Below are positions 26,042 to 63,477 of a stretch of DNA of 64,000 nucleotides, in pieces (positions within the stretch are counted from its first letter, which is position 1; each line of letters opens with the position of its first letter). The DNA is taken from contig NZ_SNUS01000001.1 of NCBI RefSeq assembly GCF_012027635.1, forward strand, positions 124,001-188,000. Direction: 5' to 3'. The position numbers and the translations under genes are program-made. Under the pieces are notes generated by a model. The model worked only from the letters and a program-made list of their open reading frames with translations. It was not told the DNA's origin and searched no databases. The stretch is from Thermococcus sp. 21S9 (GTDB lineage: Archaea > Methanobacteriota_B > Thermococci > Thermococcales > Thermococcaceae).

Positions 26042-26112
26042 GCCCCCGGGAAACCGCGGGGGATGAGCGCCTCGGCGAGCCGTGAGTCCCCTTCGCTCCC
26101 CGGGGGCACAGT
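26042..26112 (+). ncRNA. Box H/ACA guide RNA (pseudouridylation guide), candidate
   Basis: Single-hairpin H/ACA layout. Lower stem GCCCCCGGG (26042-26050) pairs perfectly with CCCGGGGGC (26099-26107) and is followed at once by ACA (26108-26110). Internal pocket arms are AAACCGCG (26051-26058) and TTCGCTC (26092-26098). Upper stem GGGGA/TCCCC (26059-26063/26087-26091) leads to a kink-turn-like TGA...GTGA pair under a CGC-CTCG-GCG loop, the usual L7Ae site. The distance from pocket to ACA (16 nt) fits the rule. The pocket would accept a target of the form AGCGAA-UN-CGCGGUUU (inferred). Which rRNA site it guides is unknown. Confidence 0.75.
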
Positions 26113-31415: not shown

Positions 31416-31475
31416 TCGCGGATGACGACCCTTGCCCAGTCTGAACTGTGATGACGTCGGTATTAGCTGACGCAG
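31416..31475 (+). ncRNA. Box C/D guide RNA (2'-O-methylation guide)
   Basis: All four boxes in the archaeal layout: C ATGACGA (31422-31428, one change from RTGATGA), 12-nt guide CCCTTGCCCAGT, D' CTGA (31441-31444), 3-nt spacer, C' GTGATGA (31448-31454), 12-nt guide CGTCGGTATTAG, D CTGA (31467-31470), closed by GCG/CGC. By the N+5 rule it would methylate the G in ACUGGGCAAGGG and the U in CUAAUACCGACG of a target RNA. It has its own TATA box. Lies between a small gene and the Cas4-like gene. Confidence 0.85.
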
Positions 31476-47275: not shown

Positions 47276-47352
47276 GCCGGGGTAGCCTAGCTCGGCAGGG
47301 CGGGGGACTCGTAATCCCCAGGTCCCGGGTTCAAATCCCGGTCCCGGCTCCA
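47276..47352 (+). tRNA. tRNA-Thr (anticodon CGT)
   Basis: Acceptor GCCGGGG pairs with TCCCGGC (one G-U pair), D arm with GCTCGGCAGGGC, anticodon stem GGGGA/TCCCC around loop CTCGTAA (anticodon 47310-47312), T arm GGTCCCGGGTTCAAATCCCGG with GGTTCAAAT, discriminator T, and an encoded CCA at 47350-47352. No intron. Reads ACG codons. Confidence 0.97.
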
Positions 47353-61896: not shown

Positions 61897-62064
61897 ATGC
61901 TAGTTGATATGAAGACCCTCTCCGTTCTAATGGAGATGCGAAGCAAAAGGAGGGTAAAGAAGGGCTCCGCCGAGAGAATGCTGGGCATACTCGAAGGAAA
62001 ACTGCCCGAGGGCATGACCAGTGTGGAACTGATTAGGAAGATAAGGGAGGAGGAGTATGATTAG
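61897..62064 (+). CDS. VapB-like antitoxin, 55 aa
   Basis: Short gene with GGCGGTGGG before ATG 61897: MLVDMKTLSVLMEMRSKRRV, then KKGSAERMLGILEGKLPEGMTSVELIRKIREEEYD. Matches the size and helix pattern of small archaeal VapB antitoxins. Own promoter GTTAAAATACGG lies in the end of the glycosylase gene (about 61857-61868). Overlaps the toxin start by 8 nt. Confidence 0.72.
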   Translation: MLVDMKTLSVLMEMRSKRRVKKGSAERMLGILEGKLPEGMTSVELIRKIREEEYD

Positions 62065-62512
62065 AGCATATCTCGACACAAATGTCCTTCTGAACGTATG
62101 GTTTAAGGAAGAGGACCCAAAAACAGGAGCCAAGCTGTGGGAGGCCCCACTTCGGATTTTAGAGCTCATTGAAGAAGGCAAAATTGAAGGTGTGGTCTCA
62201 ATATTCACACTTATGGAAAGCGCCCACGTCTTCAAAAGGAACGGACTGAACCCCGAGAGAGTCAGGGAGATTGAAGACGTTGGTATAGAGGTTTACATTC
62301 CCAACGAACTCGTTTTAATTGACGCTTTCTCCTTCCAACTAAAGCTTGGAACCGACCCCTATGACTCCGTTGCGCTGGCTTCTGCACTGGCATCGAGGTG
62401 TGATGTTCTGGTAACAAGGGATGAGTCATTCAGAAAGAAGGTACGGGAGCAGATAACAACACTTAGTCCGGAGGAATTTATTGAATGGATTTCCATGCGT
62501 GATGAACCATGA
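62057..62512 (+). CDS. vapC: PIN-domain toxin (VapC-like)
   Basis: 151 aa: D in MIRAYLDTNVLLNVWF, E in TLMESAHVF, D in TDPYDSVALASALAS and D in LVTRDESF form the PIN site. Base composition is lower in G+C than neighbours. Its end overlaps the first of two coiled-coil genes by 4 nt, making a four-gene unit. Confidence 0.87.
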   Translation: MIRAYLDTNVLLNVWFKEEDPKTGAKLWEAPLRILELIEEGKIEGVVSIFTLMESAHVFKRNGLNPERVREIEDVGIEVYIPNELVLIDAFSFQLKLGTDPYDSVALASALASRCDVLVTRDESFRKKVREQITTLSPEEFIEWISMRDEP

Positions 62513-62856
62513 AAGTAACGGTTGTTCTGCCCCGCGAGAAGTTCAAATCCCTGAAGGGAAGGGACGTTAAAGCCCTAATCAAGGAGAACCTCCCTAAAGT
62601 TGAGGAAACCCTCAGAGCCGAGAGGGAGGAGTTCCTTCGGGAGAAAATTGGGAAGCTCGAGGAGAAGCTCCGGGAAATGGAGAACCAGCTCGACGAGCTG
62701 AGGGCGTTCTACGAGAAGGCCTTGAATGACAAGGAACTCATGATGACCGAGCGCGATAAGCTGAGAAAGGAGAACGAAGAGCTGAGGAAAAGGCTCGAAG
62801 AGAGGAGAAGTTCACAAGACGTGAACAATTCGTTCACGGAGCGTGAACGAAGATGA
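62509..62856 (+). CDS. Coiled-coil protein in the third toxin-antitoxin operon
   Basis: 115 aa, not recognised. Beta-like start MKVTVVLPREKFKSLKGRDVKALIKENLPKVEETL, then a continuous coiled coil (about 36-100: EEFLREKIGKLEEKLREMENQLDELRAFYEKAL and on), and a polar tail. Its last codons contain two TTCAC-N5-GTGAA palindromes. Starts on the VapC stop and ends on the next start, both by ATGA overlaps. Confidence 0.72.
   Translation: MKVTVVLPREKFKSLKGRDVKALIKENLPKVEETLRAEREEFLREKIGKLEEKLREMENQLDELRAFYEKALNDKELMMTERDKLRKENEELRKRLEERRSSQDVNNSFTERERR
62811..62847. promoter_or_regulatory. Two tandem TTCAC-N5-GTGAA palindromes
   Basis: TTCAC-AAGAC-GTGAA (62811-62825) and TTCAC-GGAGC-GTGAA (62833-62847), centres 22 bp apart, lie inside the first coiled-coil gene just before the ATG at 62853. 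The core TCAC-N5-GTGA is that of the Thermococcales glycolytic motif bound by TrmBL1, but outer bases differ. Confidence 0.5.
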
Positions 62857-63248
62857 AGCTCACAATCAAACCCGATAGGGGCTTCGGGAAGGTTGAGGTC
62901 GAGCTCGGCGAGCTCTCGGCCGAGATTGAGAAGCTCGCGGAGCGCTACGGCGTTCCCCCTGAGAGGATTATTGAAATCGCACTCACCGGGGAGTTCAAGA
63001 AGTCAAAGGGAGAGCTTGAGCAACTCGAAAAGAAATCTGAGGAGCTTGAAAAGAAGGTCTGGAGGCTCGAAAAGGAGTACGCCCCGCTTCGCTACAAGGC
63101 CTACGGCCTTAGCGAGGACAACAAAATTCTTGCAATCGAGCTATCGGGCCTGATAGCGGAGAACAACCAGTTAAGGCGCTTCTTGAGGCTCCCCCCGAAC
63201 AGGAACCTTGAGCTGAGAAAGCTTATATCCTACTACCTTCAAGGTTGA
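62853..63248 (+). CDS. Second coiled-coil protein of the operon
   Basis: 131 aa, not recognised. MKLTIKPDRGFGKVEVELGELSAEIEKLAERYGVPPERIIEIALTGEFKKSKGELEQLEKKSEELEKKVWRLEKEYAPLRYKAYGLSEDNKILAIELSGLIAENNQLRRFLRLPPNRNLELRKLISYYLQG: short beta start, RHH-like helices, coiled coil (50-80), second helix pair. It resembles its upstream neighbour in layout and they may pair. The last codons hold the promoter of the box C/D RNA. Confidence 0.72.
   Translation: MKLTIKPDRGFGKVEVELGELSAEIEKLAERYGVPPERIIEIALTGEFKKSKGELEQLEKKSEELEKKVWRLEKEYAPLRYKAYGLSEDNKILAIELSGLIAENNQLRRFLRLPPNRNLELRKLISYYLQG
63222..63228 (+). promoter_or_regulatory. TATA box for the second box C/D RNA, inside a coding region
   Basis: CTTATAT within the last codons of the coiled-coil gene, about 25-28 bp before the RNA start near 63250. 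Confidence 0.5.
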
Positions 63249-63249
63249 A

Positions 63250-63310
63250 GCGCGGATGATGACAGCGAATTGCACCGAACGCTGTGATGACGAGGACTGG
63301 CCCTGACGCC
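63250..63310 (+). ncRNA. Box C/D guide RNA (2'-O-methylation guide)
   Basis: C ATGATGA (63256-63262), 12-nt guide CAGCGAATTGCA, D' CCGA (63275-63278, one change), 5-nt spacer, C' GTGATGA (63284-63290), 12-nt guide CGAGGACTGGCC, D CTGA (63303-63306), closed by GCG/CGC. By the N+5 rule the predicted targets are the A at position 5 of UGCAAUUCGCUG and of GGCCAGUCCUCG. It starts 2 bp after the coiled-coil stop codon. Confidence 0.87.
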
Positions 63311-63395
63311 GTCCCGGGCCGGCCGTGAGGAATCCAAGACGGGATGAGCGAAGGCGATGATATACCCTATGAGCGCCGAGCCGGTCCGGGGCGTT
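63305..63395 (+). ncRNA. Candidate structured RNA with long stem and kink-turn-like hairpin
   Basis: CCCGGGCCGGC (63313-63323) pairs with GCCGGTCCGGG (63380-63390, one G-U), extended outside by GACGC/GCGTT. Inside is a hairpin GGCG-ATGA-TA...TA-TGAG-CGCC (63353-63377) with the tandem GA layout of L7Ae kink-turns. No ACA box at the right distance and only degenerate C/D boxes, so class unknown. It overlaps the D-box end of the preceding guide RNA. Confidence 0.5.
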
Positions 63396-63423: not shown

Positions 63424-63435
63424 AAAATTTATAAA
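63424..63435 (+). promoter_or_regulatory. TATA box of the amidase gene
   Basis: AAAATTTATAAACC lies about 25-30 bp before the expected start near 63455; GGGGGTGT precedes ATG 63478. Confidence 0.55.
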
Positions 63436-63477
63436 CCATTGAACCGTTTCTTGCCCTACTGCACGGGGGTGTACAGC

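Follow-up and report, generated by a model that had tools for sequence, protein, structure and literature searches.

A box C/D sRNA with a 14-bp terminal stem in Thermococcus as the probable guide for C34 of elongator tRNA-Met

The locus and its two abutting RNAs

We analysed a structured RNA predicted within a 64,000-nt stretch of the Thermococcus sp. 21S9 genome (hereafter the window), the relevant features of which are listed in Table 1. A gene for a 131-aa protein is followed by an ordinary box C/D sRNA (RNA1), by the RNA under study (RNA2) and, 84 nt beyond RNA2, by the start codon of an amidase gene. The original prediction had placed RNA2 next to a C/D RNA and this is borne out, as the closing CGC of RNA1 runs to 63309 and the first base of the long RNA2 stem is 63310, with no spacer between them. 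Upstream, a PIN-domain gene (62057-62512) directly precedes two small genes (62509-63248) that have no Pfam match over the cutoff, the last of which is conserved beside the guide RNA in most of the family. Elsewhere in the window, Rfam matches above cutoff were an H/ACA RNA (Pab160, 26042-26110), a snoPyro_CD RNA (31418-31473) and a tRNA (47276-47349). We also noted a tRNA-Trp gene with a 62-nt intron (L113, G000:C1 about 560943-561082), a length equal to that of the known intronic C/D guide.

Table 1. Features of the RNA1-RNA2 locus, in window coordinates
Feature	Position	Strand	Basis
Gene for the 131-aa protein, conserved upstream of the RNAs; 3 nt separate its stop codon from RNA1	62853..63248	+	
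RNA1, ordinary box C/D sRNA	63252..63309	+	Rfam sub-threshold C/D matches; target pairings
RNA1 terminal stem, 3 bp	63252-63254 with 63307-63309	+	
RNA1 boxes C, D', C' and D	63256-63262, 63275-63278, 63284-63290, 63303-63306	+	
RNA1 D' guide, putative target 23S A870	63263-63274	+	pairing from 23S 866
RNA1 D guide, putative target 16S A1073	63291-63302	+	pairing with 16S 1070-1079
RNA2, box C/D sRNA, probable Thermococcus form of the tRNA-Met Cm34 guide	63310..63393	+	conservation, box register and spacing, covariation
RNA2 terminal stem, 14 bp, 5' arm	63310..63323	+	double changes in 10/14 pairs
RNA2 box C, GTGAGGA (GTGAVGA in most homologues)	63325..63331	+	aligned homologues
RNA2 D' guide ATCCAAGACGGG, 12 bp with 23S rRNA 644-655, predicted target U648	63332..63343	+	complementarity; shuffles
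RNA2 box D', ATGA (CTGA in most homologues)	63344..63347	+	aligned homologues
RNA2 K-loop stem-loop, GC-GAAG-GC	63348..63355	+	covariation, homologues
RNA2 box C', ATGATAT (ATGACGT or GTGACGT in most homologues)	63357..63363	+	aligned homologues
RNA2 D guide ACCCTATGAGCG, 10 bp across pre-tRNA-Met exon-intron junction, predicted target C34	63364..63375	+	complementarity, conservation
RNA2 box D, CCGA (CTGA in a few homologues and other genera)	63376..63379	+	aligned homologues
RNA2 terminal stem, 14 bp, 3' arm	63380..63393	+	covariation
TATA-like box AAATTTATAAACC, 3' of RNA2	63424..63436	+	read from sequence

A covariance model search matched RNA2 strongly in 55 of 61 genus genomes, and a 181-nt query was present in 33 genus genomes when 60 relatives plus the source genome were searched. 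At all 33 of these loci, and at most loci in other genera, the upstream 131-aa gene is present, whilst the amidase lies within 300 nt downstream at only eight of the 33. The original prediction had allowed for a leader of the amidase gene, and the short distance between the two would suit a cis-acting leader or riboswitch; as amidase synteny is not conserved, however, we rejected this as a general function. A TATA-like box (AAATTTATAAACC), which probably belongs to the amidase gene, also separates it from RNA2, and the constrained parts of RNA2 are its guides, making a leader role highly improbable. A promoter and terminator scan with models of bacterial type found neither.

Additionally, we observed guide turnover in the neighbouring RNA1, where the D' guide is nearly fixed while the D guide varies by species (L014, L023, L029), being of the GACTGGCC type or of the CAACGCTAT and AGCACCCT types. 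The GACTGGCC guide core of RNA1 recurs in two genomes of genus g12 (L199, L155), in a very short C/D-like unit (a C box, a 12-nt guide ending GGGACTGGCC, and CTGA) that abuts a canonical sR41-type RNA.

Terminal stem, boxes and register of RNA2

The terminal stem of RNA2 comprises 14 continuous, G+C-rich pairs, two of them G-U, and encloses exactly 56 nt, in good agreement with the long stem closing about 56 nt that had been described. Folded in isolation, RNA2 reaches -45.4 kcal/mol (z = -2.17), with three of 200 shuffles equally good, a result that is only suggestive by itself. As the isolated fold is thus only moderately above shuffles, the case for the structure rests on comparison. In an alignment of 51 homologues that was fitted to the model, 99.2 % of terminal stem cells are paired and changes on both sides occur in 10 of the 14 pairs; for the whole structure, 93.6 % of cells are paired and 14 of 19 pairs have such changes. 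The compensatory changes on which the original prediction had staked its structure are therefore present, amounting to 44 double-change cells compared with 8.3 in shuffles (0/500). An independent MAFFT alignment (A1) agrees, with six double-change pairs and 16 cells, and in four divergent genomes (L119-L122) the inner stem is largely rewritten yet still pairs. Further inner helices proposed by RNAalifold (UCC/GGG, 27-29 with 35-37; 19-21 with 73-75; 60-63 with 67-70) were discarded, as they are invariant or have one-sided changes only and would bury the guides.

RNA2 follows the box order of archaeal C/D sRNAs, with guides of about 12 nt, and matches the consensus letters only in part. In all 30 aligned homologues the spacing is exactly 12 nt from C to D' and 12 nt from C' to D; D' reads CTGA in 20 of these, box C is GTGAVGA or ATGAVGA and box D is mostly CCGA. 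That boxes of RNA2 itself are off consensus (D CCGA, C' ATGATAT) counts against a C/D assignment. The original prediction had held RNA2 not to be a standard C/D RNA, and whilst the deviating boxes stand, the exact 12-nt spacing in the correct register identifies it as a C/D sRNA. Across the 30 aligned rows the GA of box C and that of box D are invariant, and base 6 of box C with base 1 of box D forms an invariant G-C pair; beside the covarying terminal stem, these tandem G-A pairs would form the C/D kink-turn. At the second motif, 23 rows have G at base 6 of C' and C at base 1 of D', and seven rows have A at both, a switch that may represent one single event. The D'-C' loop extends in other species to a 5-bp full kink-turn stem, and the K-loop stem shows an exchange of G-C for A-U (11 of 47 rows), such that a covarying flanking stem of 2-5 bp points to a K-loop or K-turn at C'/D'. 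The tandem GA signals noted earlier are hence real, as parts of the C/D and C'/D' motifs rather than of the GGCG/CGCC hairpin in which they had been placed. That hairpin itself is at shuffle level, both in pairing (79.8 % vs 79.7 %) and in covariation (0.109 vs 0.108).

The long stem might instead serve mainly to process or protect a joint RNA1-RNA2 transcript, being cut to free both guides, which would be compatible with a C/D guide function. The direct abutment of the two RNAs, a stem of 14 bp where RNA1 and the canonical relatives have 3 bp, and the occurrence of tandem C/D units in two g12 genomes all favour this; as relatives with 3-bp stems evidently persist, however, we regard it as a tentative proposal, with the odds somewhat against it.

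Predicted targets of the two guides

The elongator tRNA-Met, absent from the tRNA lists, was located as an intron-bearing gene (G000:C1 197558), the exon-intron junction of which reads CGGCTCATA on the exon side and GGGCCACTCC on the intron side. The D guide of RNA2 pairs over 10 bp with GCUCAUAGGG across this splice junction, and C34 faces the fifth base upstream of box D (N+5), so that both the position of C34 and the pairing into the intron are those of a tRNA-Met Cm34 guide. The D guide motif CCTATGAGCNCYGA was found in 90 of 94 Thermococcaceae genomes (73 of 74 good ones), with controls near zero, and the target motif CTCATAGGG with an intron-length gap in 92 of 94, although this pattern also yields some unrelated matches. 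Pairing length alone was equalled by six of 200 shuffled D guides. The assignment of C34 therefore draws its weight from position, conservation and homology. No target for the D guide was found in a scan of rRNA. Two other complements were rejected: a perfect 12-nt match at C1:587285 falls within what appears to be coding sequence and has no Rfam match, and one beside a tRNA-Arg is on the strand opposite to the tRNA.

The D' guide forms 12 contiguous pairs with 23S rRNA 644-655, and none of 200 shuffled guides was as good; the guides of RNA2 are thus complementary to a tRNA and an rRNA. The predicted target of this putative 23S guide, U648, aligns approximately to E. coli 566. Conceivably, RNA2 acts through the tRNA-Met guide alone, the D' half and its unusual boxes being left over as a structural remnant. 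Sister genera have a different and variable D' guide, box C' is off consensus, box D' is ATGA in the clade of this strain, and tRNA guides without a second target have a precedent in the Pyrobaculum pattern cited in PMC7994747. Conversely, the D' guide core TCCAAGACGGG is invariant in the 51 homologues and has its 12 bp with 23S, and the K-loop stem covaries, such that we consider a single active guide unlikely.

Judged from sequence comparison, the first anticodon base of elongator tRNA-Met and one large rRNA site are very probably methylated under the direction of RNA2. In the proposed mechanism, the C/D kink-turn and the C'/D' K-loop would be the binding sites of L7Ae, with recruitment of Nop5-fibrillarin. 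The D guide would pair across the 5' splice site of the intron-bearing pre-tRNA-Met, placing C34 for methylation, and the D' guide would do likewise with 23S U648; as the D guide spans the splice site, methylation of C34 would precede splicing. RNA2 would be transcribed in tandem with RNA1, processed, bound by these proteins and active in methylation. Two published observations count against the assignment: Cm34 has been reported for the initiator tRNA-Met of P. furiosus, and not clearly for the elongator (PMC7668247), and the C/D circles listed for T. kodakarensis are all shorter than RNA2. RNA2 may already stand in small-RNA tables for that species.

Relationship to known tRNA-Met guides

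No Rfam family, including the sR41 and sR-tMet models, matched 63310-63395 at E-values up to 5, so that RNA2 does not reach the gathering cutoff of either. In sister genera, RNAs with the same guide are C/D RNAs with canonical boxes, mostly scoring 58-72 bits with Rfam sR41 (cutoff 54; one at 52) and 30-36 bits with sR-tMet (cutoff 50), and, with genus g13 and L145 as the exceptions, they directly follow the same 131-aa gene. The canonical form is also kept in three genus members (G016, G031 and G087, two of them incomplete), and one genome (G061) has CCGA with the C box CATGACGA and no RNA1. Given these forms, the remodelled RNA2 looks derived.

The unusual length and stem could suggest an H/ACA-type or categorically new guide RNA. 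As originally predicted, no H/ACA family in Rfam matches 63309-63395; a C/D RNA accounts for the box spacing, the targets and the homology alike, and RNA2 carries the D guide of the known tRNA-Met Cm34 family, which removes the grounds for a new guide type and leaves this explanation with hardly any likelihood. We therefore identify RNA2, with a probability of about 0.88, as a box C/D sRNA representing, in Thermococcus, the archaeal guide that directs 2'-O-methylation of elongator tRNA-Met at C34. This draws on what the genomes show: a conserved structure, the box register, guides of 12 nt, their complementarity to the targets, conservation of the tRNA guide and its target across the family, and synteny. 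A more specific proposal, to which we give about even odds, is that RNA2 is a mixed double guide, one sRNP methylating C34 of pre-tRNA-Met before splicing as well as 23S U648, and that it arose in a single genus by capture of an rRNA guide and of a 14-bp clamp stem, the stem compensating for weakened boxes and separating RNA2 from its abutting partner.

With this assignment, a Thermococcus RNA that is conserved yet missed by Rfam gains a function; RNA2 is moreover an example of a tRNA guide RNA rebuilt in stem, boxes and second guide around an unchanged tRNA guide. As it occurs in a genetically tractable genus, RNA2 also offers a test case for a long terminal stem replacing consensus boxes, and for one guide RNP serving both tRNA and rRNA.

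The function of RNA2 is of a known kind, since stand-alone, non-intronic C/D sRNAs guiding Cm34 of pre-tRNA-Met have been described (sR49 is predicted to do so in Pyrococcus), with the guide pairing into the intron and methylation necessarily coming before splicing (PMC2584109). With Pyrococcus sR49 and the sister-genus RNAs of Rfam sR41 (RF01126), RNA2 shares the D guide motif CCCTATGAGCG, the pre-tRNA-Met target and, in most genera, the place directly behind the same gene; the name sR41 denotes a different orphan guide in PMC2584109, and the equivalence of sR49 and sR41 is thus putative. RNA2 differs from the sR41-type RNAs in its terminal stem (14 bp rather than 3), in box C (GTGAVGA rather than ATGATGA) and box D (CCGA rather than CTGA), in a D' guide for 23S that replaces theirs, and in falling below detection by the sR41 model. 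The haloarchaeal sR-tMet (RF02163) has the same predicted Cm34 target and is likewise a stand-alone C/D sRNA whose pairing extends into the intron (PMC2584109), but the sister-genus RNAs score below its cutoff and RNA2 itself is unmatched. Further afield, human SNORD97 and SCARNA97, as described in PMC6601510, are C/D guides of elongator tRNA-Met C34, a likeness by analogy only. What is new in RNA2 is its architecture.
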